A program made the position numbers and the translations under genes. DNA of 64,000 nt from Deltaproteobacteria bacterium (GTDB lineage Bacteria > Desulfobacterota > Desulfobaccia > Desulfobaccales > 0-14-0-80-60-11), in NCBI GenBank assembly GCA_030018495.1, contig JASEFS010000003.1, forward strand, positions 1 to 64,000, read 5' to 3'. The notes below the pieces were generated by a model. That model made no database searches and had not been told where the DNA came from. It saw nothing but the letters and a program-made list of their open reading frames with translations. This document shows positions 41,572-64,000 of the stretch, piece after piece (positions within the stretch are counted from its first letter, which is position 1; each line of letters starts with the position of its first letter).

Positions 41572-43785
41572 TTAACTACACTTCGAAAACCCGCAACTCT
41601 TGCACACCAAGCAGCCGGATTCGTGCTCCATGGTGGAGCCGCAGTCCGGGCACAGGCCCATGGCGTCCGCGACCTTGGGGGTGTCCACTTCCGCGACCCG
41701 GGCCAGCACCTGGGCGATGGCGTCCGGGCAGGACAGCACCTGCTTGCCGTTTTGCCAGATGGGGCTGGGGCAGCGGATGCCGGTGATCTGCTTGATGATG
41801 GACTCGATCTTGACGCCGGAGCGCAGGGCCAGGGAAATCAGGCGGCCCGTGGACTCGATCTGGCTGGAGGCGCAGCCCCCGGTCTTGCCCATCTGGGCGA
41901 AGACCTCGCAGAACCCCAGGTCGTCCTGGTTCACGGTGACGTAAAGCTTGCCGCAGCCCGTGGTGATGAGGCGGGTGACCCCCACGGTGGTTTCGGGCCG
42001 GGGCCGGGGCTCGATGTAGTGCAGCTCCTTGGCCTTGGCGTCGGGCTTGCCGCCGATGTTCAGGACCTGGCTTTCCCGGCTGCCGTCCCGGTAGATGGTG
42101 ACGCCCTTCAGGCCCATGTCGTAGGCCATCAGATAGACCTGGCGCACGTCCTCCACCGTGGCTTGGTTGGGGAAGTTCACGGTCTTGCTCACCGCGTTGT
42201 CCGTGTGCTTCTGGAACGCGGCCTGGATTTTGGCGTGCCAGACCGGCGAGACTTCGTGCGCGGTGACGAACAGTCGGCGGATGTCCTTGGGGATTTCCTT
42301 GAAGTCCCGGATGGAGCCGGTGCTCGCCAGGGCGCGCATGAGCTCCGGGGAATAAAAGCCCCGGCGCCTGGCGATCTCCTCGAAATAGGGGTGCACTTCC
42401 ACCAGTTCGGTGCCTTCCAGGACCCGCCGGATGTAGGACACCGCGAACAGGGGCTCGATGCCGGAGCTGGCGCCGGCGATGATGCTGATGGTGCCGGTGG
42501 GCGCGATGGTGGTGACCGTGGCGTTGCGCATGCGCCCGAAGCCGTTGCCGTCGTACTTGCTGCCCGGATAGGAGGGGAAATTGCCCCGCTTGACGGCCAG
42601 CGCTGCGGACGCGGCCTTGGCTTCCTTGTCGATGAAGGCCATGACCTCTTCGGCCGTCTGCACCGCGTCCTCGGAATTATAGGGAATGCCGAGTTTCAGG
42701 AGGAGATCGGCGAAGCCCATGACGCCCAGGCCGATCTTGCGGTTGGCCTTGGTGTTTGCGGCAATGCTTTCCAGAGGGAAGTTGTTGGCGTCGATGACGT
42801 TGTCCAGGAAGTGCACCGCGGTGTGCACCATGTCCTTGAGCCTGGTGTAGTTGATGCTGCCGTCGTCGGCCACTTTGCCCAGGTTGAGGGACCCCAGGTT
42901 GCAGGACTCGTAGGGCAGCAGGGGCTGCTCGCCGCAGGGGTTGGTGGCTTCGATCTGTCCCAGGTGGGGCAGGGGGTTGTCCCGGTTGATGGCGTCCAGA
43001 AAGATGACGCCGGGCTCGCCGGTGGCCCAGGCGCTTTTGACGATGAGGTCGAAGAGGTCCGCGGCCCTGACCCGCTGCACTTCCCGACCGTTTCGGGGAT
43101 TGACCAGCGCAAAGGTCTTGTCCGCTTTGACCGCTTCCATGAACGCGTCGGTGAGGCCTACCGAAATGTTGAAATTGGTGAGCTTCTTGGTGTCGTTCTT
43201 ACAGGTGATGAATTTTTCGATATCCGGGTGGTCGACCCGCAACAGCCCCATGTTGGCGCCCCGGCGGGTGCCGCCCTGCTTGATGGTCTCGGTGGCCACG
43301 TCAAAGATGTTCATGAAGGAAATGGGCCCCGACGCCACGCCCTTGGTGGACATTACGGGATCGTTTTCCGGGCGGATGCGGGAGAAGGAAAAGCCGGTGC
43401 CGCCGCCGGACTTGTGGATCATGGCGGTGTGCTTGATGGCTTCGAAGATGCTGTCGATGCTGTCCTCCACAGGCAGCACGAAGCAGGCGGAAAGCTGGCC
43501 CAGTTCGCGCCCCGCGTTCATGAGGGTGGGGGAGTTGGGCATGAACGCCAGGGAGGCCATGAGGTCGTAGAACTTTTTGGCGGTGGCGGTGATATCCGCG
43601 TCGGGATCATACAACAGGTCAATCTTGGCGATGGTCTCGGCCACCCGGCGGAACATGTCGGGCGCGGCCTCGGTGGGTTCGCCCTGCTCGTCCTTCTTGA
43701 GGTAGCGGCGCTTGAGGACCACCGCGGCGTTTTGGCTCAGCGGCAGGTCACCGGTGATTTCTCTTGTCTCCGTATGCATATCCAT
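41572..43785 (-). CDS. nrdJ: Class II (adenosylcobalamin-dependent) ribonucleoside-diphosphate reductase
   Basis: Reduces ribonucleotides to deoxyribonucleotides using B12 radical chemistry. 737 aa. RNR landmarks: [21 protein letters not shown] (split: NPCGEQPLL and [10 protein letters not shown]), [18 protein letters not shown]. The C-terminal ~45 residues carry a CPDCGSTME and [10 protein letters not shown] zinc-ribbon/thiol tail as in B12-dependent NrdJ. Strong GGGGAGAAG ribosome site. Promoter region has two NrdR boxes. A second, shorter class II paralogue lies at 63004. Confidence 0.96.
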
Positions 43786-49320: not shown

Positions 49321-50214
49321 ATGGCCACTGACATGCTTGGCTCGGTAATGGTTGTGGGCGGCGGCATTGCCGGTATGCAGGCAGCTCTGGACCTCGCCAA
49401 CTCTGGTTATTACGTACATTTGGTGGAGAAAAGCGCCGCCATCGGCGGCACTATGGCGCAGATCGACAAGACCTTTCCTACCAATGACTGCGCCATGTGA
49501 ATTATCTCCCCCAAGCTGGTCGAGGTCGGCCGGCACACCAACATCGAAATCCACACTTTAAGCGAACTCAGGGACCTTTCCGGCGAGCCGGGGAGGCTGA
49601 CGGCGCGTCTGGAAAAGCGGGCCCGCTTTGTGGACCCCGACAAGTGCACCGGCTGCGGCACTTGTTTGGAGGTCTGCCCCATCCGCTATGAAGTCCAACT
49701 GCCTCCGGAGGAAGAAGCCAAGGCCCGCGCGGCATACGCTGAAGCTACCGAAGAAGAGGCCGTGGCGGACATCATTGCGCGGCACCGGGACGAACCCGGC
49801 AACCTCCTGCCAATCCTTCTGGACATCAACCGCCACTTCAATTGGCTGCCGCGCCCGGCCCTGGAGCACGTGGCCGGCGACCTGGGGATGCCCCTCACAG
49901 AGATTCTCAGGGTGGCCAGCTTCTATAACGCCTTTTCCCTGGTGCCCAGGGGCAAGCACATCATCAATGTCTGCCTGGGGACGGGCTGTTTTGTGAAAGG
50001 TTCGCCGCGTCTGTTGGAGGGGCTGGAGCGCAAGCTGGGCATTGCCCACGGCCAGACCACCGACGACATGCTTTTCACTCTTGAGGTAGTGCGGTGCATC
50101 GGCTGCTGTGCCCTGGCTCCGGCTCTGCGCATCGACGACGCCACCTTCGGGCGGGTGACTCCGGGTCAGGTGGGCAAGATCATCGACTCCTACACCAAGG
50201 CGGCGGGCCAATGA
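49321..50214 (+). CDS. Selenocysteine HdrA N-terminal half fused to NuoE
   Basis: 297 aa if the in-frame TGA at 49498-49500 (codon 60) is read as selenocysteine. Residues 1-120 match the start of HdrA: FAD dinucleotide fold ([17 protein letters not shown]), then [19 protein letters not shown], where other HdrA proteins have Cys, then a 4Fe-4S motif [12 protein letters not shown] (109-120). There the HdrA text stops; residues ~145-297 are a full NuoE/HndA 2Fe-2S domain ([32 protein letters not shown]). The missing HdrA continuation (IYKLYPQAVP onward) is found in the protein at 52375. Overlaps nuoF by ATGA. Confidence 0.9.
49515..49534 (+). promoter_or_regulatory. SECIS-like hairpin of the HdrA UGA
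   Basis: Seven-pair stem GCUGGUC / GGCCGGC (two G-U pairs) with loop GAGGUC at +22 to +27 after UGA. The GGUC loop matches that of E. coli fdhF. GG falls at +24/+25. Confidence 0.8.
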
Positions 50215-52121
50215 AGATCAGCAGTCTCACCCAGTTAATGGCGGTCAAGGAAAAAGGCCTGGCCCAGACCTATCCGAACAAAATCAAACTCATGGTGGGC
50301 CTGGCCACCTGCGGCATCTCCGCGGGGGCTGATGAGGTGTACCGCTGTCTGAGCCAAAAACTGGCGGAAGCCGGGCTGGATGTCGTTCTGGCCAAGACCG
50401 GCTGCATCGGCTTCTGTCAGAAAGAGCCGCTGGTGGATGTGGTATACCCCGGCAAGGTCCGTTTGACTTACCAGAGCATGACCCCGGAGAAAGCCGCAGA
50501 ACTGGTAAGCTCCCTGAAAGACCGCAGAATCATGGATGACAATCTCCTGTGCCGCATCGATCAGGATGAATTTCTGGTGGAGGGCGTGGTCAGGCCCTAT
50601 GCCAATCCCCACCCGCCGGCGCTGCCGGCCCAGGTTCCCCGCTATAACGAACTCCCCTTTTTCAACAAGCAGGTGAAAATATCGCTCCGCAATTGCGGGT
50701 TTATCAACCCGGAAAGCATTGAGGAGTACATCGGCCGGGGCGGCTATCGGGCTTTGCATAAGGCCGTCACCATGCTGACGCCGGAAGAGGTCATTGAGCA
50801 AATCAAGGCCTCGAAGCTAAGGGGCCGGGGCGGCGCAGGGTTCCCCACCGGCCTCAAGTGGGAATTCGCCAGAAAGGCCGAGGGTGATATCAAGTACCTC
50901 ATCTGCAACGCGGATGAAGGCGATCCCGGCGCCTTCATGGACCGCGGCATCCTGGAAGGCGACCCCCACGCGGTGCTGGAGGGCATGGCCATCGGCGCCT
51001 ACGCCATCGGCGCGAGCGTCGGCTACATCTACTGCCGGGCCGAATACCCCCTGGCCATCGAACGCCTGAAGATCGCCATCTCCCAGGCAGAGGCTTACGG
51101 CCTGCTGGGAGAAAACATTTTCGGCGCGCCCTTCTCTTTCAAGCTCAAAATCCGGGAAGGCGCCGGCGCGTTTGTCTGCGGCGAGGAAACCAGCCTCATC
51201 GCCAGCATCGAAGGCAAAGTGGGCGAGCCCCGGCCGCGGCCTCCTTTTCCGGCCCAAAGCGGCCTGTGGGGCAAACCGACGGTCATCAACAACGTCAAAA
51301 CCTGGTCCCACATCGCCCCCATCATCGCCCGGGGGCCTGAGTGGTACGCCAACTACGGCCAGGGCGAATCCAAAGGCACCACCGTGTTTTCCCTGGTGGG
51401 CAAAATCAACAACTCGGGCCTGGTCGAAGTCCCCCTGGGCATCAGCTTGAGAGAGATGATCTACGACGTGGGGGGCGGCATCGCCAAAGGCCGGGAGTTC
51501 AAGGCGGTGCAGACAGGCGGGCCGTCCGGAGGCTGCATCCCGGCTCAGTATCTGGACACGCCGGTGGACTACGAGTCCCTGGCCGCGTTGGGGTCCATCA
51601 TGGGCTCCGGCGGCATGATCGTCATGGACGAAGCGGACTGCATGGTGAACGTGGCCAAATATTTTCTGGAATTCACCATGGACGAGTCCTGCGGCAAGTG
51701 CACCCCCTGCCGCGAAGGCACCATGAGGCTCATGCAGATGCTGGATGCCATCACCGCGGGCCGGGGCCAGGAAGGGGATCTCGAGAAGCTGGAAAAGATG
51801 AGCCGGCTTATCAAAAAAACCTCATTGTGCGGCCTGGGGGCCACCGCGCCCAACCCGGTGCTCACCACCTTGAAATATTTCCGGGACGAATACGTCGCCC
51901 ACATCCGGGACAAGAAATGCCCGGCCAAGGTCTGCAAGGAGCTCATAACCTTCAGCGTGGTCGCGGACAACTGCACCGGCTGCCAGCTTTGCCGCCTCAG
52001 ATGCCCGGCGGAGGCCATTGCCGGCGCCAAGAAGGAAGTGCACCGCATCATCCAGGACAAATGCATCAAGTGCGGCACCTGCTATGATGCCTGTAAGTTT
52101 GATGCCATTGCGGTGGAATGA
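50211..52121 (+). CDS. NADH-binding NuoF/HndC-like flavoprotein with extra ferredoxin domains
   Basis: 636 aa, the NAD(H) gateway. Residues ~1-120: thioredoxin-like 2Fe-2S domain (C34, C65, C69 region: ATCGISAGA, KTGCIGFCQ). Then the NuoF core: GRGGAGFPTGLKWEFA, CNADEGDPGAFMDR, GAGAFVCGEETSLIASIEG (FMN and NADH sites) and the 4Fe-4S motif CGKCTPCREGT (about residue 493). The last ~55 residues add two 4Fe-4S motifs (CTGCQLCRLRCP, CIKCGTCYDACK). This is the HndC/bifurcating-hydrogenase architecture. ATG 50211 overlaps the previous stop. Confidence 0.93.
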   Translation: MKISSLTQLMAVKEKGLAQTYPNKIKLMVGLATCGISAGADEVYRCLSQKLAEAGLDVVLAKTGCIGFCQKEPLVDVVYPGKVRLTYQSMTPEKAAELVSSLKDRRIMDDNLLCRIDQDEFLVEGVVRPYANPHPPALPAQVPRYNELPFFNKQVKISLRNCGFINPESIEEYIGRGGYRALHKAVTMLTPEEVIEQIKASKLRGRGGAGFPTGLKWEFARKAEGDIKYLICNADEGDPGAFMDRGILEGDPHAVLEGMAIGAYAIGASVGYIYCRAEYPLAIERLKIAISQAEAYGLLGENIFGAPFSFKLKIREGAGAFVCGEETSLIASIEGKVGEPRPRPPFPAQSGLWGKPTVINNVKTWSHIAPIIARGPEWYANYGQGESKGTTVFSLVGKINNSGLVEVPLGISLREMIYDVGGGIAKGREFKAVQTGGPSGGCIPAQYLDTPVDYESLAALGSIMGSGGMIVMDEADCMVNVAKYFLEFTMDESCGKCTPCREGTMRLMQMLDAITAGRGQEGDLEKLEKMSRLIKKTSLCGLGATAPNPVLTTLKYFRDEYVAHIRDKKCPAKVCKELITFSVVADNCTGCQLCRLRCPAEAIAGAKKEVHRIIQDKCIKCGTCYDACKFDAIAVE

Positions 52122-52374
52122 CAAGGCTGTCAGCTATCTGCTGTCAGCAATCAGCCAGGAAAAAATAGGGAAGGTCCGAAAAAGCGGACCCGGCGGGCAG
52201 TGCCCGCCTTAATCGAATAATCATGGTCATGCTGAAAGCTGAAAGCTGACGGCTGATAGCTATAGGGCGTGCCGGGCACGCCGTTTCCTGGCCGACTGGC
52301 GGCCACGGGCCGCCCTATTTTTGAAAAGCTTAAAGCCTAAGGCCTAAAGCTTATAGCTTCCAAATGGACACGAC
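52122..52374. repeat. Heptamer/REP spacer between nuoF and the NuoG-HdrA gene
   Basis: Three heptamer clusters: GCTGTCA type (52126-52153), GCTGAAA type (about 52231-52252) and GCTTAAA/GCCTAAG type (52328-52362). Between them are a GGCGGGCAGTGCCCGCC palindrome (about 52191) and a long palindrome framed by ATAGGGCG and CGCCCTAT (52262-52318), the same class as part of the 291-bp repeat. No gene is encoded. Confidence 0.85.
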
Positions 52375-55300
52375 ATGGTGAAACTGACCATCAACGACCG
52401 GCCTGTGGTGGTTTCCGAAGGAACGACGGTATTGGAGGCGGCCCGCCATTTGGGGGTGAATATTCCCACCCTCTGCCATTTTGAGGGCTTGACCCCTTAC
52501 GGCGGCTGCCGCGTCTGCCTGGTGGAGGTGACCGCGGGAACCCGCACCCAGCTCACTGCGTCCTGTACCTATCCCGTGAGCGACGGCTTGGCGGTGCGGA
52601 CGGATACGGACGAGGTGCTGGAGGCCCGCCGCTTTGTCATGGACCTCCTGCTCTCCCGCTGCCCGGAGGTGCCGGCCTTGCAGGAAATGGCCCGGCAGAT
52701 GGGGCTCACGGAGCCGGGCTTCTCCGGAGGCGAGAGTGACTGCATCCTGTGCGGCAAGTGCGTGCGCATGTGCCATGAGCTGCAGCACGTGGGCGCCATC
52801 GGCGTTATGGGCCGGGGCATCAAGCGGGATATCGTCACCCCCTTCGGCGAGTTCTCCAAAGTCTGCCGCACCTGCGGGGCCTGCGCTTTCGTCTGCCCCA
52901 CCGGGCATATCGCGGACATCGCCAAAATCAGCGGCAAAACCCCGCGGCCCAAGCTCAACGAATTCAACGTGGGCCTTAACACCCGGGGCAACATCTACAA
53001 GCTTTATCCCCAGGCCGTGCCCGCGGCTCCGGCCATCGACCGGAACAATTGCATCCAGCTCCTGACCGGCGACTGCGGCCTGTGCGCCCAGAGCTGCACC
53101 GCAGGGGCCATCGATTACAGCCAGAAGGACGAAACCGTTGACCTGGATGTGGGCGCGGTCATCCTGGCCCCCGGCTACAAGCCCTTCGACCCCTCCGGCC
53201 TGGAGGTTTACGGCTACGGGCACCTCCCCAATGTTTACACCAGCCTGGAGTTCGAGCGCATGCTCTCCCCGGGAGGCCCCTTCGGCGGACACATCCAGCG
53301 GCGCTCCGACGGCCGGGAGCCCAAAAAGATCGCCTGGGTTCACTGCGTCGGCATGCGCAGCGAAAAGGAAGGCGCCCACCCGTATTGTTCCAACTTCTGC
53401 TGCATGGCCTCCCTGAAGCAGGCCATCATCGCCCGGGAGCACATCGGCCCGGACCTGGATATGGCGCTCTTTTACATGGACATGCGCACCCCCCGCAAAG
53501 ACTTTGAAAAGTATTCGGTGCGCATCAAGGACCAAGGCGCCCGCCTCATCCGCTCCCGGGTGCACAGCATCACTCCCGCCGGCCCGGACGGCGACCTGGA
53601 AATCCGCTACGTCACCGAAGAAGGCGGCGTCAATGATGAAACCTTTGATTTGGCGGTCCTGTCCGTGGGCGGTGTGGTCACCCCGGAGGTCATCGCGCTG
53701 GCGAACAGGCTAGGAGTCAAGCTCAGCCACAACCGCTTCATGGATACGGAATGCTTCAAACCGGTGACCACCTCCCGGCCGGGGGTCTATTCCTGCGGCT
53801 TCTTCAACGGCCCTAAGGATATTCCCCAGACGGTGATGGAGGGGAGCGCCGCCGCGGCGGCCGCAGCCCAACCCCTGGCCCCGGTCCGGGGCACCCTCAT
53901 GCGAAAAAAGGAATTTCCACCGGAAGCGGACGTGGCCGAGGCAGAACCCCGGATAGGCGTGTTTGTCTGTCACTGCGGCATGAACATCGGCGGGGTGGTG
54001 GATATCCCCGATATCGTGCAATATGTGCAGGGCATCCCGAATGTGGAGTATGTCCAGGCCAACCTCTTTTCCTGCTCCCAGGACGCGACCAGCGCCATGG
54101 TGGAGAAAATCAAGGAGCACGGCTTGAACAGGGTGGTGGTGGCGGCCTGCACCCCCTCCACGCACCAGCCCATTTTTCAGGACATGCTCAGGACCGCGGG
54201 GTTGAACAAGTATCTTTTTGAAATGGCCAATATCCGCAATCAGTGCTCCTGGGTGCACCAAGCCGAGCCCGAGGCGGCCACCTTAAAGTGCAAGGACCTG
54301 ATCCGCATGGCGGTTGCCAAGGCCCGGCTGCTGGAGCCCCTGGAATACATAGAGGTGCCGGTGAACAAAACGGCCTTGGTGGTGGGGGGCGGCGTCACCG
54401 GCATGACCGCGGCCCTGGGTCTGGCCGACCAGGGCTACCGCGTCCACCTGGCCGAGCGCAAGGCCCGCCTGGGCGGCAACGCCCTGCGGCTCCATTCCAC
54501 CTGGCGGGGCGGCTTGGTGGGCCCACGGGTGGACCTGCTTATCGCCAAGGTCATGAGCCACCCCAACATCACGGTGCACTACAAGGCCATTGTCGAGAAG
54601 GTGAGCGGTGTGGTGGGGAACTTCCGGACCACCCTGTCCCGCAACCAGGTGATTGAGCACGGTATTGTGGTCATCGCCATCGGCGCTGAGCCCTACCGCC
54701 CCAAGGGCGAATTTCTCTATGGCGAGCATCCCAACGTGCTTCTGGCCCTGGACCTGGACCAGGAAATTTCCGAAGAAACCGAGAGGGTCAAAAACGCCCA
54801 AGCCGTGGCCTTCATTCAATGCGTGGGCTCCCGGAACCCCGAACGCCCTTATTGCAGCAAAGTATGCTGCTCCCATTCCGTGGAAAACGCCCTGAAACTC
54901 AAAGAGCTGAACCCTGACATGGAGGTGTACGTCCTCTACCGGGATATGCGCACCTATGGCGAGCGGGAGATGTTCTATACTTTGGCTCGGGAGCAGGGGG
55001 TGATTTTCATCCGCTACAAGGCCGCTGATCCCCCCAAAGTAGCCGAAGCCAACGGCCGTCTCAAAATTGAAGTCAGGGACCATATCCTGGGAAAGCCCGT
55101 GGACCTGGAGGTGGACCTTCTCACCCTGGCTACGGCCATTGTCCCGCACCAGAATGCCCCCCTGGCCGAGCTCTATAAGGTGCCGTTGAATGCCGAAGGG
55201 TTCTTCACCGAGGCTCATGCCAAAATCAGGCCGGTAGACGCGCCCACCGACGGCATCTATTTGGCGGGCTTGTGCCATTACCCCAAGCCCTTGCAGGAGT

Positions 55301-55626
55301 CGGTGGCCGAAGCCCTGGCCACTTCAGCCCGGGCCGCCACCATTCTTTCTAAAGACTCACTGATGCTGGAATCCACCATTTCCCGGGTCATAGACGAGAA
55401 CTGCGACGGCTGCGCTTTCTGCATCGACGCCTGCCCGTTCAAGGCGATCACTTTGATCGAATACATGAAGGACGGCGGCGTCAAGAAAACCGTGGAAGTG
55501 AGCGAGGTGCTTTGCAAAGGCTGCGGCTCCTGCATGGCCACCTGTCCCAAGCGGGGCATCATGGTGGCGGGCTTTACTCTGGACCAGTTGGCCGCCCAAG
55601 TGGACGCGGCGTTGGAGGTGGCTTAA
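52375..55626 (+). CDS. NuoG N-terminal domain fused to HdrA C-terminal half and to a second HdrA
   Basis: 1083 aa. Residues 1-~190: NuoG-type domain with a 2Fe-2S site (Cys34, 45, 48, 64) and two 4Fe-4S motifs (CILCGKCVRMC, CRTCGACAFVCP). At ~195 it changes to FNVGLNTRGNIYKLYPQAVP, which in ordinary HdrA directly follows the ferredoxin that ends in the 49321 protein; a Cx7CxxCxxxC cluster (226-241) and the HdrA C-terminal FAD half run to ~510. From ~525 (VFVCHCGMNIGG) a second HdrA-like unit follows, with FAD fold VVGGGVTGMTAALGL (~665) and C-terminal ferredoxins (CDGCAFCIDACP, CKGCGSCMATCP). Unit 2 has no CAMC motif. Expected role: flavin-based electron bifurcation hub. Confidence 0.92.
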   Translation: MVKLTINDRPVVVSEGTTVLEAARHLGVNIPTLCHFEGLTPYGGCRVCLVEVTAGTRTQLTASCTYPVSDGLAVRTDTDEVLEARRFVMDLLLSRCPEVPALQEMARQMGLTEPGFSGGESDCILCGKCVRMCHELQHVGAIGVMGRGIKRDIVTPFGEFSKVCRTCGACAFVCPTGHIADIAKISGKTPRPKLNEFNVGLNTRGNIYKLYPQAVPAAPAIDRNNCIQLLTGDCGLCAQSCTAGAIDYSQKDETVDLDVGAVILAPGYKPFDPSGLEVYGYGHLPNVYTSLEFERMLSPGGPFGGHIQRRSDGREPKKIAWVHCVGMRSEKEGAHPYCSNFCCMASLKQAIIAREHIGPDLDMALFYMDMRTPRKDFEKYSVRIKDQGARLIRSRVHSITPAGPDGDLEIRYVTEEGGVNDETFDLAVLSVGGVVTPEVIALANRLGVKLSHNRFMDTECFKPVTTSRPGVYSCGFFNGPKDIPQTVMEGSAAAAAAAQPLAPVRGTLMRKKEFPPEADVAEAEPRIGVFVCHCGMNIGGVVDIPDIVQYVQGIPNVEYVQANLFSCSQDATSAMVEKIKEHGLNRVVVAACTPSTHQPIFQDMLRTAGLNKYLFEMANIRNQCSWVHQAEPEAATLKCKDLIRMAVAKARLLEPLEYIEVPVNKTALVVGGGVTGMTAALGLADQGYRVHLAERKARLGGNALRLHSTWRGGLVGPRVDLLIAKVMSHPNITVHYKAIVEKVSGVVGNFRTTLSRNQVIEHGIVVIAIGAEPYRPKGEFLYGEHPNVLLALDLDQEISEETERVKNAQAVAFIQCVGSRNPERPYCSKVCCSHSVENALKLKELNPDMEVYVLYRDMRTYGEREMFYTLAREQGVIFIRYKAADPPKVAEANGRLKIEVRDHILGKPVDLEVDLLTLATAIVPHQNAPLAELYKVPLNAEGFFTEAHAKIRPVDAPTDGIYLAGLCHYPKPLQESVAEALATSARAATILSKDSLMLESTISRVIDENCDGCAFCIDACPFKAITLIEYMKDGGVKKTVEVSEVLCKGCGSCMATCPKRGIMVAGFTLDQLAAQVDAALEVA

Positions 55627-55903
55627 GAGCTTTAAGCCATAGGCTATAAGCTTAAAGCTGAAAGTCTTTAATCGGTAGAATAGGCGCCAAATTGGGCAGG
55701 GCGAAAAAAAAAGGAAAAGGCGAATAAAGCCGGTAGCGGGCAGTGCCCACCCCGCATTTAAAATGGGGACGCCGCCCTCGACTGTCCGCAAAAGTGTAGC
55801 GCCGCCGCCCCGGCGGCGACTAAAAGAAGGAAATGTAGCCGCAGGCTTTAGCCTGCGCCAGGCTTACAGCTTATTGCTTATTGCCTTTTTTAAAGGACTT
55901 TTT
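55627..55903. repeat. Repeat spacer before mvhD
   Basis: GCTATAAGCTTAAAGC-type heptamers after the stop (to about 55664), a REP palindrome GCCGCAGGCTTTAGCCTGCG (about 55838), and GCTTACA/GCTTATT heptamers (55862-55885) about 20 bp before the mvhD ATG. No gene. Confidence 0.8.
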
Positions 55904-56326
55904 ATGAGCGATTACGACTACGAACCCTTAATCCTCGCATTCCTGTGCAACTGGTGTTCGTACGCCGGTGCGGACCTGGCCGGAGTGTCCCGCATCCAGT
56001 ACCCACCCACTGCCAGGATTATCCGGGTGATGTGCTCCGGCATGGTGCATCCCAACCTCATTATCGACGCCCTGACCAAAGGCGCGGACGGGGTGCTGGT
56101 CTGCGGCTGACACCTGGGTGAGTGCCATTACCTGGAAGGTAATGTCAAAGCCCAAGGCAGAGCGGAAGCCGTAGATATGATGCTGGAGGACTTCGGCCTG
56201 GAGCCGGAGCGCTTCCGGCTGGAGTGGATTTCGTCCTCGGAAGCCCAAAAGTTCGCAGACGTCGTCACCGACATGACCGAGACTTTAAGGGCCCTGGGCC
56301 CCAGCCCTTACAGCACCAGGGCGTGA
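55904..56326 (+). CDS. mvhD: Selenocysteine MvhD (methyl viologen-reducing hydrogenase delta subunit)
   Basis: 2Fe-2S protein that carries electrons from hydrogenase (or another donor) to HdrA. 140 aa with in-frame TGA at 56108-56110 (codon 69) read as Sec. LAFLCNWCSYAGADLAG and RVMCSGMVHP precede it; the motif that is normally GCHxGxCHY is U-HLGECHYLEGN. The frame continues to TGA 56324-56326 with conserved FGLEPERFRLEWISSSEAQKF (split: LEPERFRLEWISS). A GGAC ribosome-like site precedes ATG 55904. Without Sec, the gene would lose half its length. Confidence 0.93.
56126..56144 (+). promoter_or_regulatory. SECIS-like hairpin of the mvhD UGA
   Basis: Perfect 7-bp stem CAUUACC / GGUAAUG with loop UGGAA at +23 to +27 after UGA, GG at +24/+25. 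Confidence 0.85.
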
Positions 56327-56459
56327 GGCAGGGGCCGGGTTTTAGTGTCAGGTGCCAGGATTTTTGGACAGGATGATCTTTATCCAGCCATGAAAGCAAC
56401 CGATTAGCTCAACGGGAGCATAAACTTCCAGCCTTGGCTTCACAGGCAAGATGCCGTTT

Positions 56460-56499
56460 GAACTTTGAACCTTGAACCTTGAACTTTGAACTGAACTTA
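56460..56499 (+). repeat. Heptamer array before the 63-aa gene
   Basis: GAACTTT, GAACCTT, GAACCTT, GAACTTT, then GAACT-GAACTTA. Different unit from the AAGCCTA arrays but the same 7-bp period. Ends 16 bp before the ATG at 56515. Confidence 0.8.
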
Positions 56500-56514
56500 G
56501 GGGAACCGTAAAGC

Positions 56515-56706
56515 ATGACCATACCGCTGTTCCGCAAGGTTGATGGCAAAAAATTCATGTGGGACGGGGGCACTTACGAGACCCAGGAAGAAGCCACCCA
56601 AGTGATGGAGTCTTATGCCAAGGACGGTTTCGAAGTGCGTCAGTTCGAACACCAAGGCCAATTCCTGGTTTATTCCAGGCGGGTGGCCGAAGTGCAGTCG
56701 GCCTGA
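56515..56706 (+). CDS. Small conserved-looking protein between mvhD and mvhG
   Basis: 63 aa (IPLFRKVDGKKFMWDGGTYET, VMESYAKDGFEVRQFEHQ, FLVYSRRV). Cysteine-free, compact alpha/beta pattern. I do not recognise it. Its place inside the hydrogenase/Hdr operon and good codon use argue that it is real and possibly an assembly or accessory factor (inference). Confidence 0.6.
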   Translation: MTIPLFRKVDGKKFMWDGGTYETQEEATQVMESYAKDGFEVRQFEHQGQFLVYSRRVAEVQSA

Positions 56707-56793
56707 TTGGAGCTTTCCTTTATACGGCCATTATATTTTTAATCAAGATGGGCAGCTGAAGCTGCTCTTTACCTCTCGGAGGAGGAGGAGCGT

Positions 56794-57738
56794 ATGCCGG
56801 TCAAAGTAGTGGAGGATTGGTTGAATGCCTGCTCCGGTTGCGAGATCTCCATTTTGAATATCGGCGATCCGCTGCTGGACCTCTTGCCCCAACTGGAATT
56901 TGTCCACATGACCGCCCTGGTGGACCACAAATTCTTCGGGCAGGTAGGCGATAAAATGACTATGGAGATTCCGGAAGCCGATGTGGCCATCGTTTCGGGC
57001 GGCGTGCGCAACGAAGAGCACAAGCACGAACTGGAGGAGATCAGGAAAAAAGCCAAGTTTCTCATTGCCCTGGGCAGTTGCGCGGCGTACGGCGGCATCC
57101 CGGCCCAGGCCAACATGTGGAAGAATGAGGAGGTTTTTGAAAAAGTCTTCCGGCATTCGCCCTCCACCGACCCGGCTCCCGACCCCGCGGATCCCAACAT
57201 CCCCAAGTGGACCGATTCCTGTATGGCCGTGGATGAGGTAGTAAAAGCGGATATCGTCATCCCCGGCTGTCCGCCGCACCCGGACTGGATTGTGGAGGCA
57301 TTATCCGCGCTGCTGGCGGGCAAGACCTCCTGGAGCCTGCCGGAGCGCAGCGTGTGCGACACCTGTCCCGTAATCCGGGAGAAAAAGGCCGCCGGCGGCG
57401 CCGTCAAGCGGTGCTTCGAGAACGCCGAATTCAACCCGAATGAAGGCCTTGACAAGATGCGGTGCCTCAACGAGCAAAACATCCTGTGCCTGGGCCCGGT
57501 GACTCTGGCGGGCTGCGCCGGCAAAACCGGGGTGCCCCGCTGCATCCAGGCCCGCACGCCCTGCCGGGGCTGCTTCGGCCCCATCCGCAAGGGCGCCAAA
57601 CCCATGGTGGACATGATGGGCGCGCTCACTTCGGTGGGGCTGGACCCCAAGACCATTGTGGACCGCCGGGCCATTATGAACCGCTACATCGGCGGGCACA
57701 AATTCCTGACGCCGCTCCCGGCCAGGCCGGCGAGATAA
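56794..57738 (+). CDS. mvhG: [NiFe] hydrogenase small subunit MvhG (group 3c type)
   Basis: Electron-transfer subunit with three Fe-S clusters linking MvhA to MvhD. 314 aa. Proximal cluster motif DWLNACSGCEISIL, LGSCAAYGGIP, PGCPPHPDWIVEAL, and a C-terminal ferredoxin-like Cys set (CDTCPVI, CLGPVTLAGCAGKTGVPRC, CRGCFGPI) fit MvhG. No Tat signal, so cytosolic. GGAGGAGGAG ribosome site. Stop is 12 bp before mvhA. Confidence 0.95.
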   Translation: MPVKVVEDWLNACSGCEISILNIGDPLLDLLPQLEFVHMTALVDHKFFGQVGDKMTMEIPEADVAIVSGGVRNEEHKHELEEIRKKAKFLIALGSCAAYGGIPAQANMWKNEEVFEKVFRHSPSTDPAPDPADPNIPKWTDSCMAVDEVVKADIVIPGCPPHPDWIVEALSALLAGKTSWSLPERSVCDTCPVIREKKAAGGAVKRCFENAEFNPNEGLDKMRCLNEQNILCLGPVTLAGCAGKTGVPRCIQARTPCRGCFGPIRKGAKPMVDMMGALTSVGLDPKTIVDRRAIMNRYIGGHKFLTPLPARPAR

Positions 57739-57750
57739 GGGGGTGAGATA

Positions 57751-59193
57751 ATGGGCAAAGTCATCAATATTCAGCCGGTGACCCGCATTGAAGGCCATGC
57801 CAAGGTGGCCATTCACCTGGACGATGCCGGCAATGTGGCGGACACCAAATTCCACGTACAGACCTTGCGGGGCTTTGAGAAATTCTGCGAGGGCCGACCC
57901 GCGGAGGAAATGCCCCGCATCGTCTGCCACATCTGCGGCATCTGCCCCTGGGCCCACCATCTGGCTTCCAGCAAGGCCGGGGACGCGGTCTTCGGCGTGA
58001 CGCCGCCTCCTGCTGCGGTCAAACTCAGGCGCCTCATGCAGAACATCGCCTATGTCAGCGACAAGATTTTGCACTTCTATTTTCTGGCCGCGCCCGACTT
58101 CGTCATCGGCCCCGACGCCGACTATTCCGTGAGAAACGTGGTGGGCATCGTCGGCGCCGCCCCGGATATCGCCAAGCAGGTGGTGCATTACCGCCACCTG
58201 GGGGCTCAGATGCTGGAGCACTTCGCGGGCCGGGCCATCCACCCCACTTTCTCTTTGCCCGGCGGGGTGAGCAAGCCCATGAATGAAGCCGAGCGCCAGG
58301 AAATGCTGCCCCAAGCCAAAGAGCTCCTGGAGTTTGCCAAATTCACCATCAAGTTTGCCAAGGAAAACGTCTTTCCCAAGTACCTGGACGCCATCCAGAA
58401 GCTGGGCGTCATCAAGGTGGGATACCTGGGCACGGTGAACGACGAAGGCGCCCTGGACTTCTATGACGGCAAACTTCGCCTCATGCAGCCCGACGGGGCC
58501 TTTGAAGAATTCACCTACGAGCAGTACACGGACTTCATCGGCGAGCACGTAGAGCCCTGGTCCTATCAGAAATTCCCCTATGCCAAAAAATGGGGCGGGT
58601 TTGCCTTGGACTTGGAGAACCCCAAAGGAGTGTACCGCACCAATACGCTGGCCCGCATCAATGTGGCCGACAAGATGAAGACGCCGCTGGCCCAGGCCGA
58701 ATTGGAGGAGTTCCGGGCCGCGTTCGGCCGCCCGGCCCACCAGACGCTACTTTATCATTACGCCCGCTTGATCGAGCTGGTGCAGTGCGCCGAAGAGGCC
58801 GTGCAGCTCCTGGAGGACCCGGAAATCACCAGCCCGGAGGTGCGCACCAAGATCGAGCCGCGGGAGGCCAGGGGCGTGGGCTGCGTGGAGGCCCCCCGGG
58901 GCACCCTGATTCACGACTATGAGACCGATAAAGACGGCTTGATCAAGAGCGTCAACCTCATCGTGGGCACCACCCACAACAACGCCGCCATCAATTTGTC
59001 CGTCAACCAGGCGGCCAAGGAGACGATCAAAGGAGGCAACTACGACCAGGGGATCTTGAACAAGGTGGAAATGGCCGTACGCGCCTACGACCCCTGACTG
59101 AGCTGCGCCACCCACCGCCTGGACGGCGGTGTTGCGGTGGAGGTTACCATTGTCGGCCCTGATGGGCAGGTGGTGGAAACCCTCAGGAATTAG
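57751..59193 (+). CDS. mvhA: Selenocysteine [NiFeSe] hydrogenase large subunit MvhA
   Basis: Catalytic H2-oxidising subunit. 480 aa with TGA at 59095-59097 (codon 449) read as Sec. N-terminal nickel motif is HICGICPWAHH. The C-terminal motif is DP-U-LSCATH, where the Sec replaces the first Cys ligand of nickel; the frame then continues RLDGGVAVEV... to TAG 59191-59193. That leaves a ~25-residue tail after CATH of the kind removed by a maturation protease (gene at 59848). RVTRIEGHAKVAIHLD-type text (TRIEGHAKVAIHLD) begins the protein. Same design as the selenium-containing Vhu enzyme of methanogens, but fused in one chain. Confidence 0.95.
59113..59131 (+). promoter_or_regulatory. SECIS-like hairpin of the mvhA UGA
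   Basis: Perfect 7-bp stem CACCGCC / GGCGGUG with loop UGGAC at +23 to +27 after UGA, GG at +24/+25. Confidence 0.85.
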
Positions 59194-59370: not shown

Positions 59371-59790
59371 ATGCCGATGAAGCCCCGGTTTCTATGGATT
59401 ATGGTGCTGGCGGCTGTGTTTATCGCCGGCATGACGAACGCGGCCTCAACGCCGCCCAAGGGCAGCGCCGAGCGCCGGGAGATTTTGGCTGCTTTGCGGC
59501 AGGAGCTTAAAACCTGGACTAAGCTCGACGTCATCTTCGTGGTAAAATATCTTAAAGTGAAGGATGGCTGGGCCTGGGTGACGGCCTTCCCTGAATCACC
59601 TGATGGAAAGAGCAAATATGAGCCGGTGGAAGCTCTGTTGCATAAAAAGGCCGGCGCCTGGCAGGTGATGGAGATGCGGCCCGGAGGGGCGGAATGCGAG
59701 GAAGACCCGGACTGCGCCGATGATACGCGCTATTTCCGGAAGCTCAAGGATCGGTTTCCGGCCGTGAACGCAGAAATCTTCCCGCATTGA
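59371..59790 (+). CDS. Small exported protein of unknown function
   Basis: 139 aa. Signal peptide MKPRFLWIMVLAAVFIAG then TNAAS. The mature part has an NTF2/PepSY-like alternation (FVVKYLKVKDGWAWVTAFP, YEPVEALLHKKAGAWQVMEM, CEEDPDCADD, two Cys). No family recognised with confidence. It is between mvhA and the maturation protease but its export makes a direct role in the cytosolic complex unlikely. Confidence 0.65.
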   Translation: MPMKPRFLWIMVLAAVFIAGMTNAASTPPKGSAERREILAALRQELKTWTKLDVIFVVKYLKVKDGWAWVTAFPESPDGKSKYEPVEALLHKKAGAWQVMEMRPGGAECEEDPDCADDTRYFRKLKDRFPAVNAEIFPH

Positions 59791-59847: not shown

Positions 59848-60330
59848 ATGCTCAGCGAAATTTTCGACAAATCCATCCTTATCTTCGGCTGCGGCAACAT
59901 CCTGTTGGGGGACGACGGCTTCGGGCCGGCGGTGGTCAAGCGCCTCAATGACAACCATGCCCTGCCGGAGCACGCCCTGGCGCTGGACATGGGCACCGGT
60001 GTGCGGGAGGTGCTCTTTGACCTGATCCTGAGCGAGTCAAAGCCGGAGAAAATCATCATCGTGGACGCGGTGGACCACCCGGGTCGCCAGCCCGGTGAAG
60101 TCTTTGAGATCGCGGTGGAAGACATTCCGGCCAAAAAAATCGCCGATTTTTCCTTGCACCAGTTCCCCACGGTGAATATGCTGAAAGAACTGAAAGACCA
60201 TACGGGCATTGACATCACCATTTTGGCGGCCCAGGTCCAGGAAATTCCGGAGGAACTCAGAGAGGGCCTGACGCCGCCCCTGGCCGCGGCGGTGGAGGAG
60301 GCCTGCCGGCGGATTTTGAGAAATATTTAA
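59848..60330 (+). CDS. Hydrogenase maturation protease
   Basis: Removes the C-terminal peptide of the large subunit after nickel insertion. 160 aa. FGCGNILLGDDGFGPAVV at the N-terminus (nickel-sensing Asp/Glu in GDDGFG), DMGTG, IIVDAVDHPGRQPG, and LHQFPTV with the second metal His are typical of the HycI/FrcD family. Close to mvhA, whose predicted tail starts after CATH. Confidence 0.94.
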   Translation: MLSEIFDKSILIFGCGNILLGDDGFGPAVVKRLNDNHALPEHALALDMGTGVREVLFDLILSESKPEKIIIVDAVDHPGRQPGEVFEIAVEDIPAKKIADFSLHQFPTVNMLKELKDHTGIDITILAAQVQEIPEELREGLTPPLAAAVEEACRRILRNI

Positions 60331-60434: not shown

Positions 60435-61790
60435 ATGGCTGAAGAAGCAAAACCCATGGAAATTCATATTGACCGGAAGAACCGGAAAATCGGGGGCATC
60501 GCCCCTGAGCTGGCTGACCGCTGCTTCACCTGCGGCACCTGCAGCGGCGGCTGTCCGGCCACCGGTCTTGTCCCCATGGAAGGTGCTGAAGGAGTCACCT
60601 GGGACGCCCGCAAGGCCATCCGGGCCATCGTCTTCGGCATGGAGCAGGAGGTGGTGGATTCCAAATGGCCCTGGGTTTGCACCCTGTGCGGCCGCTGCGA
60701 GTACGCCTGCCCCATGGGCATCAAGCTGATGCGCTCCTTCCGCGCCGCCCGGACTCTGAGGGAGCGGGACAAGGTGCCCGGCCCCATCCACAAGGGCACC
60801 ATGATGAATCTGGAGCGCGGCAATAACCTGGGCATCCCCAAAGAAGACTTCCTTTACCTCCTGGCTGATTTGGGCAAGGAACTGGAAGAGGAATGCTGCC
60901 CCGGCTTTTACGTTCCGGTGGACAAGGAAGGGGCCAACCTCATCGTCACTATTAACTCCAAGGAGCCTTTCGGCGAACCCGATGACATGAAGTTCTGGTG
61001 GAAGATCTTCTATGCCGCCAAAGAGGACTGGACCGTGTCTTCGGTGAACTGGGAAGGCGTCAACTGGGGCCTGTTCTCCGGTGACGATCCGGCTTGGAAG
61101 GAGCAGGTACGCCGGATCATCGAGAATGCCCGACGATTAAAGGTGAAAACCATCTTGTACCCGGAATGAGGGCACGCTTACTATGCAACCCGGGCCGGGT
61201 TCAAAAATTGGTTTCCCGAAGTTTATGACGAATTCAAGGTGGTGAGCGTCCAGGAACTGCTCAAGGAATACATCGACGAGGGTCGCATCAAGCTGGACCC
61301 CTCCGTCAACCACCACACCATCACCGTGCACGACCCCTGCAACTACGTGCGCAAGTCCCAGATGGCCTTCGGCGACCATATGGGCGATCTTAACCGCTGG
61401 ATCACCATGCAGTGCGTCGACCCCTCCCTGTACCGGGAGATGTGTGACGACCCGATGAACAATTTTTGCTGCGGTGCGGGCGGCGGCGCCTGGGCCATGC
61501 CCTATGATGAAGAGCGCCTGGCCTACGGCAAGATAAAGGCCGACCAGATCAAAGCCACCGGCGCCGAGATCGTCATGGCTCCCTGCCATAACTGCCGCGA
61601 CCAGATCATGAAGGGGCTGCCCAAAGTGCATGACATGGGCAATTATAAGGAAACCCTTTATCTTTGGGAGCTGGTGGCCAACACTCTGGTCATCGAGCCC
61701 TGGAGCGAGGAAGAGATCGAAAAAGCCCACGCCGCACGTGACGCCCAGTTCGAGCGGGACGGCATTGAAATGGAAGAGGAAGAAGAGTAA
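60435..61790 (+). CDS. HdrC-HdrB fusion with selenocysteine
   Basis: 451 aa with TGA at 61167-61169 (codon 245) read as Sec. N-terminal HdrC part: two 4Fe-4S motifs, CFTCGTCSGGCP and CTLCGRCEYACP. Then ~120 residues lacking the usual first CCG cysteines, leading to LYPE-U-GHAYYATRAG, where relatives read PECGHAY. The HdrB/DsrK-like second CCG domain is complete: HDPCNY, FCCGAGGGAW, PCHNCRDQI. Likely the terminal disulfide-reducing (or thiol-oxidising) subunit. GGAGG ribosome site. Last gene before a terminator. Confidence 0.92.
61187..61201 (+). promoter_or_regulatory. SECIS-like hairpin of the hdrCB UGA
   Basis: AACCC / GGGUU stem with loop GGGCC at +23 to +27 after UGA (or a 6-bp stem with GGC loop), GG at +24/+25. 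Confidence 0.75.
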
Positions 61791-61903: not shown

Positions 61904-62116
61904 TTAATAATGAGAAAAATCTTTAAGCTTTTCCTCATCTTCGGGGTTAAGGCGACGTTTTCCCCCATGGCTCTCAAAATGGGCGCAATCATGCTCGTCC
62001 TGGGCGAATTGCATTTCACTTCCATCCCAGGGTTCGGGGTGAATACAGGCTCCCGTACGCAGCGAAGCCGGGTCGGGTTTAAAATGCTTGCACTCCACGC
62101 AACGAATTAACGGCAT
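61904..62116 (-). CDS. Small Cys/His-rich putative zinc protein
   Basis: 70 aa. MPLIRCVECKHFKPD, TGACIHPEPW and HDCAHF place four to five Cys and several His as a likely zinc-binding knuckle. Function unknown. Convergent with the Hdr operon. Good ribosome site AGGAGG upstream of its start at 62116. Confidence 0.65.
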   Translation of the reverse strand: MPLIRCVECKHFKPDPASLRTGACIHPEPWDGSEMQFAQDEHDCAHFESHGGKRRLNPEDEEKLKDFSHY

Positions 62117-63003: not shown

Positions 63004-64000
63004 TTAAACTGAACACTGGCGGCACTCTTCCGTAAATTCCTGGGAAACTTCCACCCTCTCAGGGGCGATGCTCAACACCTGGCCGGGCCGGGAGCCGTAG
63101 CGATATACCGTGATGCCCTTGAGGCCCAGACGCCAGGCAAGCAGGTAAGCCTCGGCGACATCATCCGCGGTAGCCTCAGGGGCCAGGTTGATGGTTTTGG
63201 AAACCGCGTTCTCAACGTGGCGCTGAAACGCGGCCTGCATCTTTACCTGATATTCCACACTCACTTCGAAAGTGGTGGGAAACAGACGCCGGAGCCCTTC
63301 CGGAAGTTCAAGGATGTGGCGCACCCTCCCGGTTTCCCTTAGCCGCGGCAGCCATTCCTCCTTGCTTAGACCGAACTCTGCCAGTTTTTGTAAAAACAGA
63401 GGGTGCACCTCATCGAATTCCTCTCCTTCCAGGGTCCGGCGGCGGTAAGCCAGGGCGAACAGGGGTTCGATGCCGCTGGAGGCCCCGGCGATCAAGCTGA
63501 TGGTACCGGTGGGGGCAATGGTGGTGACAGTGGCGTTGCGCCGGGGCGGCCGGCCCTCCTGGTGGTAGCGGCTGAAGTAGAAATTCGGGAAAGGCCCTCT
63601 TTCTGCGGCTAAGATTTCAGACTGGCGCACGGCCTGATCCTGAATGCGGGTCATGATTTTCTCCGCCAGTTCCAGGGCCTCAGGCGAATCATAGGCAATC
63701 CCCAGTTCGATGAACATGTCGGCCAGGCCCATAATACCCAGGCCTATCTTGCGATTGGCCCGGGTGATGGCGGTAATTTGCGCCAGAGGGTAATGGCTCT
63801 GGTCGATGCAGTCATCCAAAAACGAGACCCCTAGTCGCACCAGGCGGTCCAACTCCGCCCAATCCAGATCGCGGTTTTTGACGAGCTTGGCCAGATTGAT
63901 GGAGCCCAGGTTGCAGGATTCAAAGGGCAACAGGGGCTGTTCGCCGCAGGGGTTGGTAGCTTCCAGGCGTCCGAGCTCCGGGGTGGGGTTGGCCCTTTCA
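63004..64000 (-). CDS. Class II ribonucleotide reductase, second copy (5' end outside window)
   Basis: The frame is open through base 64000. 332 codons of the C-terminal half are present: [21 protein letters not shown] (split: [19 protein letters not shown]), [26 protein letters not shown] (split: APTGTISLI) and VYRYGSRPGQVL. It is clearly homologous to the gene at 41572 but diverged and ends with a short EECRQCSV tail instead of the zinc-ribbon extension, so it is a distinct paralogue of NrdJ type. Whether it is active or has NrdR boxes lies beyond the edge. Confidence 0.93.
   Translation of the reverse strand, partial: ERANPTPELGRLEATNPCGEQPLLPFESCNLGSINLAKLVKNRDLDWAELDRLVRLGVSFLDDCIDQSHYPLAQITAITRANRKIGLGIMGLADMFIELGIAYDSPEALELAEKIMTRIQDQAVRQSEILAAERGPFPNFYFSRYHQEGRPPRRNATVTTIAPTGTISLIAGASSGIEPLFALAYRRRTLEGEEFDEVHPLFLQKLAEFGLSKEEWLPRLRETGRVRHILELPEGLRRLFPTTFEVSVEYQVKMQAAFQRHVENAVSKTINLAPEATADDVAEAYLLAWRLGLKGITVYRYGSRPGQVLSIAPERVEVSQEFTEECRQCSV

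Follow-up and report, generated by a model that had tools for sequence, protein, structure and literature searches.

The window analysed here, a 64,000-nucleotide stretch of the genome of a deltaproteobacterium, carries near its end a gene for an iron-sulfur selenoprotein in which an HdrC-like dicluster domain is joined to an HdrB-like domain with a single complete CCG motif. The selenocysteine, Sec245, stands in what remains of the first CCG motif, and the residue equivalent to it in mycobacterial EtfD is a ligand of an iron-sulfur cluster that should not be able to form in the selenoprotein. The Sec form has already been catalogued under the name "Fe-S oxidoreductase-like (GlpC)" selenoprotein, with the motif UGH, and the family and its operon have been known since 2006. 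The new part is the mapping of U245 and His247 onto EtfD ligands, a correspondence that we did not find stated in the open-licence literature searched. We propose, with confidence evenly balanced, that the protein is of the HdrD type and takes the place of HdrBC in an HdrA-[NiFeSe] hydrogenase complex, where it would reduce a disulfide by means of one noncubane cluster and a redox-active Sec245 that is not a cluster ligand.

The gene and its selenocysteine

The features of the gene are as follows.

60435-61790, + strand: selenoprotein of 451 amino acids, HdrC-like dicluster and HdrB-like CCG domains (HdrD-type), "GlpC / Fe-S oxidoreductase-like (UGH)" family
60522-60710, + strand: two cubane [4Fe-4S] motifs, C30/33/36/40 and C82/85/88/92 (Pfam Fer4_17/Fer4_9; kept in 59/59 and 61/61 relatives)
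60918-61250, + strand: first CCG region (CCG1) without its early cysteines, N174, W199 and T200 standing in their place (EtfD alignment, column counts)
61167-61169, + strand: TGA codon 245, selenocysteine in PE-U-GHAY (open reading frame, relatives, hairpin comparison)
61173-61175, + strand: codon of His247, the counterpart in the alignment of EtfD His583, which binds the second noncubane cluster (PMC13083937)
61187-61201, + strand: SECIS-like hairpin AACCCG-GGC-CGGGUU, with the apical loop about 27 nt downstream of the first UGA base
61323-61607, + strand: complete second CCG motif (CCG2), C302, C345-C346-G347 and C384-x2-C387 (Pfam PF02754 and alignments of relatives)

Codon 245 is the only in-frame TGA of the gene. 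Under translation table 11 the locus yields an open reading frame of 244 amino acids that ends at this codon, as it would if the TGA were a genuine stop, or an error of sequencing, and the frame a pseudogene or a gene for a truncated protein. We regard this as scarcely credible, since dozens of independent genomes have the same TGA, a conserved protein downstream of it and a selected hairpin; the pseudogene reading was rejected on the conservation of the protein beyond the TGA. Of the 61 aligned relatives, 36 have U at residue 245, 25 have C and none has anything else, and the frame stays homologous across the TGA at identities of up to 87%. A strong match was present in 66 of 148 genomes (the host genome included), many with exactly one internal TGA, and the motif reads PEUGHAY in 74 of the 80 named loci, PECGHAY in five and has Ser in one. 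This last case, from a Desulfobulbaceae relative with the full operon (L144:2471-3625), reads PESGHAY and is either an error or an inactive variant. Some distant relatives carry "extra TAA/TAG" flags in the genome search.

The Sec genes share a hairpin whose loop starts about 26-27 nt from the UGA and which occurs in versions with compensating sequence (AACCCGG..CGGGTT, GACCAGG..TTGGTC, AACTAGG..TTAGTT). Measured against synonymous-codon randomisations that leave the protein unchanged, the mean hairpin score was 15.2 in the 82 Sec genes, compared with 7.9 in the randomisations, and 7.2 in the 11 Cys genes, compared with 7.1. Folded as a single sequence, the hairpin of the window showed no unusual stability (z = +1.05), and an Rfam scan of the window did not find a SECIS. 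The host genome has a SelB above the cut-off and a tRNA-Sec above the gathering score, and thus both marks of a bacterial selenoprotein, a selected hairpin downstream of the UGA and the Sec machinery, are present. Taken together with the restriction of residue 245 to U or C in all relatives, the Sec-specific hairpin and this machinery mean that the reading of the TGA as selenocysteine is well supported by sequence comparison. In a quick tree of 93 rows, which contains some long branches, seven changes between Sec and Cys were needed, at least six of them forced by well-supported branches. A 70-amino acid Cys-rich frame without a Pfam match lies downstream of the gene, at 61904-62116 on the - strand.

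One complete CCG motif

Pfam recognizes only one CCG domain in the selenoprotein, at residues 297-391, along with a 4Fe-4S dicluster domain (Fer4_17/Fer4_9) at about 29-96. The cysteines of the chain are residues 30, 33, 36, 40, 82, 85, 88, 92, 154, 155, (U)245, 302, 327, 337, 345, 346, 384 and 387, and there are none in residues 156-244, the zone in which the early CCG1 cysteines would be expected. The preliminary description of this DNA had reported a fusion that lacks these cysteines and keeps the PE-U-GHAY end, together with a complete second motif, and on both points the residues agree with it. It was also right that the motif contains Sec, and mistaken in placing it at the last cysteine: Sec245 takes the position of the first Cys of the closing CxxC (EtfD C581), and the last (EtfD C584) is Ala248. 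Set against the two complete CX31-39CCX35-36CXXC motifs of HdrB, CCG1 of the selenoprotein retains one of the five positions.

A profile of 34 relatives aligns with mycobacterial EtfD (PDB 9ojn) at an E value of 3.6e-22, placing U245-G-H247-A248 on C581-P-H583-C584 and C302/345/346/384/387 on C637/672/673/709/712. In EtfD, C581 and C584 are ligands of the linear D1 cluster, and His583 is a ligand of the noncubane D2 cluster and is said to render that cluster non-catalytic (PMC13083937). The remaining D1 ligand positions correspond to W199 (C538), A248 (C584) and, less surely, N174 (C503), with T200 at T539; W199, T200 and above all N174 fall in a low-confidence stretch of the alignment. With residues 156-244 free of Cys and Ala at 248, the selenoprotein lacks counterparts of C503, C538 and C584. 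An internal profile alignment of CCG1 with CCG2 (hhalign) gave nothing significant, and the CCG1 register therefore rests on EtfD. The AlphaFold2 model (mean pLDDT 88.8, pTM 0.88) is closest to EtfD (E 9e-14, probability 1.00) and then to HdrB. The alignment, the fold match to EtfD and the absence of the early CCG1 cysteines support the single noncubane cluster that the preliminary description had suggested.

That description spoke of cysteines that had been lost. Their absence stands, but the wording does not, because N174 and T200 are conserved in 61 of 61 relatives and W199 in 59 of 61, indicating an old and fixed state of the family; a recent loss of a cluster by an HdrC-HdrB fusion was considered and rejected, the state being common to DsrK and to sister clades. 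As judged from the alignments, the lack of a cluster predicted for the first CCG pocket is common to the family. Within this branch it is accordingly a mistake to treat the protein as a one-cluster oddity among two-cluster enzymes: the literature gives DsrK one CCG domain (PMC10504309), the DsrK of the host has the same CCG1 gap and keeps E-C-G-H, and FadF and DgcB are without D1 cysteines (PMC13083937). The host DsrK (G000:C10, L167) has Asp at the position of C387 of the selenoprotein, the equivalent of the bridging C234 of HdrB.

Cysteines from a partner subunit, or C154/C155 and C327 of the chain itself, could in principle rebuild an intact two-cluster, HdrB-type site. In favor of the chain's own residues, 32 of the 61 rows have Cys at 155 and 42 have it at 327; yet neither C154/C155 nor C327 is universal, whereas N174 and T200 are invariant, and C327 lies within CCG2. 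Given also that DsrK, with the same gap, is described as a one-CCG protein, we hold such a site to be very improbable, and the earlier observation survives the check for cysteines supplied by other parts of the chain.

His247 is less constant than its neighbors. In a sister clade with the motif PDCGG (L040, L044-L048, L060-L067), about 48% identical and sometimes found near MvhD/HdrA, residue 245 is Cys and Gly replaces the histidine (16 of 61 rows). Ligation by His is therefore not universal in the family, and the clade provides a natural test of His as a cluster ligand.

Relation to known families

A UGH selenoprotein encoded with an hdrA-mvhDGA operon was described in sulfate reducers in 2006 (PMC1794560), and the GlpC family (COG0247/PTHR43551) shares with the window both the UGH motif and the deltaproteobacterial operon, with four selenoproteins, that includes HdrA, FrhD/MvhD, FrhG and FrhA/MvhA (PMC1794560, PMC13188914; see also PMC9312934 on what is already known). 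The protein has Sec in a UGH motif and stands with hdrA, frhD/mvhD, frhG/mvhG and frhA/mvhA (49321-59193). Nothing essential differs from the catalogued operon; the window adds NuoF and has the gene last instead of first. A 2026 review lists the interactions of the GlpC/UGH family as unclear (PMC13188914).

The top NCBIfam matches, HmcF (NF045711, 188 bits against a cut-off of 750), the DsrK equivalog (NF045796, 149 against 400) and TmcB (NF045724, 143 against 735), all fall far below their curated cut-offs, and the true DsrK of the host scores 687 bits. The likeness consists in an HdrD-like architecture with one complete CCG and an E-C-G-H remnant of CCG1, whereas the operon of the window is without membrane partner genes and Sec replaces Cys. 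EtfD is the best structural match; the five cysteines of CCG2 are common to both proteins, and His247 aligns with the position of the EtfD His ligand. EtfD is membrane-bound, contains haem and has a linear [3Fe-4S] D1 cluster, the ligands of which are missing here. HdrB of HdrABC-MvhAGD (5odc) resembles the selenoprotein in fold, in its complete CCG2 and in the operon partners HdrA and MvhAGD, but its CCG motifs are both complete and each binds a noncubane cluster, whereas in the selenoprotein CCG1 is predicted to be empty and HdrC is fused. HdrD4 and HdrF2 of Desulfobacterium autotrophicum, two HdrC-HdrB fusions that were described in 2009 as selenoproteins (PMC2702500), are alike by description, HdrF2 having additional membrane and fumarate-reductase-like domains.

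Operon and substrate context

Upstream of the gene and on the same strand lie the following.

49321-50214, + strand: N-terminal piece of HdrA fused to a NuoE-like [2Fe-2S] domain, in-frame TGA in CAMU (about 49498)
50211-52121, + strand: NuoF-like NADH/FMN subunit
52375-55626, + strand: HdrA-type flavoprotein with a NuoG-like N-terminal Fe-S domain
55904-56326, + strand: MvhD (FlpD) selenoprotein, in-frame TGA at 56108 (CGUHLGEC)
56794-57738, + strand: MvhG/VhuG-like hydrogenase small subunit
57751-59193, + strand: MvhA/VhuA-like [NiFeSe] hydrogenase large subunit, in-frame TGA at 59095 (DPULSCATH)
59848-60330, + strand: hydrogenase maturation protease (HycI/FrhD family), directly upstream of the selenoprotein gene

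The order is thus HdrA-NuoE, NuoF, HdrA, MvhD, MvhG, MvhA, a small unknown frame and the protease, with further Sec codons in the first HdrA gene, mvhD and mvhA. HdrA appears to be split in two: a Sec-containing N-terminal piece is joined to NuoE, and beyond NuoF comes a second HdrA, whose N terminus is NuoG-like. In MvhA the Sec belongs to the nickel-ligand motif; readthrough extends to the TAG at 59191-59193, and table-11 calling truncates the gene at 59097. The small frame (59371-59790) encodes a protein with a signal-peptide-like N terminus and without a Pfam match. Elsewhere in the window are two genes for ribonucleotide reductase large subunits (41572-43785 and 63004-64000, both on the - strand).

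HdrA/NuoE occurs within 8 kb of the gene in 50 of the 80 named loci and MvhA in 26, a frequent order being protease, selenoprotein-family gene, NuoE, HdrA, MvhD, MvhG and MvhA. In one locus (L122) the gene follows HdrA-MvhD and lies beside AsrA/HydB- and AsrB/HydG-like NAD(P)H reductase subunits, and in another (L105) HdrA-MvhD and an AsrA/HydB-like gene precede it. Several near relatives (e.g. L080, L081) have no HdrA/Mvh-type partner within 8 kb. HdrA and MvhD as common partners fit a protein that would replace HdrBC.

DsrA is encoded on the contig of the window, and the host genome also has DsrC and DsrK. Among 118 sufficiently complete genomes, DsrC is present in all 27 that have a PE[U/C]GHAY form and in 43 of the 91 others (Fisher p 6e-8, uncorrected for ancestry), a co-occurrence confounded by ancestry and by a common sulfate-reducing lifestyle. 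This co-occurrence and the Dsr genes of the host point to a disulfide of sulfur metabolism, most probably on DsrC, as the substrate.

Proposed mechanism and alternatives

The mechanism that we propose takes its start from what can be read in the genomes, namely the Sec insertion, the one complete CCG motif, the operon and the co-occurrence with DsrC. In an HdrA-Mvh [NiFeSe] hydrogenase complex that also includes an NADH module of the NuoEF type, the soluble HdrD-type selenoprotein would take the part of HdrBC. MvhD/HdrA would receive electrons from H2 or NADH and the HdrA flavin would split them, the high-potential branch running through the two cubane clusters of the selenoprotein to its single noncubane [4Fe-4S] cluster. 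The predicted ligands of this cluster are C302, C345, C346, C384 and C387, with His247 as a probable sixth, and no cluster would occupy the first CCG pocket. Sec245 corresponds to C581, a ligand of the first cluster in EtfD, and would then be a non-ligand selenolate beside the noncubane cluster, where it may serve as nucleophile or redox partner. With the one-electron cluster it could reduce a disulfide or trisulfide in two steps, as in ferredoxin:thioredoxin reductase, the presumed substrate being the DsrC (di/tri)sulfide of sulfite reduction and the presumed direction its reduction.

We give about an even chance to the view that Sec245 works as a selenol beside the single cluster, the other roles to be weighed being those of a cluster ligand and of a protective residue. 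As a direct selenolate ligand of iron, Sec245 would complete or bridge the noncubane cluster, or bind a small one, and tune its potential in a subunit that only relays electrons. The equivalent EtfD C581 does ligate a cluster, and His247 aligns with a histidine whose ligation goes with a non-catalytic cluster, which counts against the catalytic model in that the selenoprotein might be a relay. The cluster of C581, however, cannot form where the other D1 ligands are missing, and the recurrent switches between Sec and Cys suit a residue with a redox or catalytic role no less well than a structural ligand; we consider ligation by selenium rather unlikely. Less likely again, in our judgement, is that Sec mainly guards against irreversible oxidation at a site that works alike with Cys and has no new chemistry. 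Cys versions in the same type of operon, from Desulfobulbus, Desulfogranum and Syntrophobacteraceae relatives (L139, L148, L154, L159), speak for such a role, but Sec is fixed across large clades. The suggestion in the preliminary description that a selenium-bearing one-cluster form would have different chemistry remains plausible, as far as the sequences can inform it.

Implications

The single-CCG proteins, among them DsrK, TmcB, HmcF and the UGH selenoproteins, stand at the thiol-disulfide step of sulfate respiration. The switch between Sec and Cys marks a single residue, besides the cluster ligands, that evolution has treated as redox-critical, and it offers a clean probe of the site. A more specific and tentative idea, which we think somewhat improbable, is that a noncubane [4Fe-4S] cluster and a free adjacent selenol make up a mixed catalytic site, with Sec245 in the place of the second, lost cluster and forming a selenenylsulfide intermediate with a protein disulfide such as that of DsrC. 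If this is true, the mixed site would be a third route of single-electron disulfide cleavage, besides those of the two-cluster Hdr and of ferredoxin:thioredoxin reductase.
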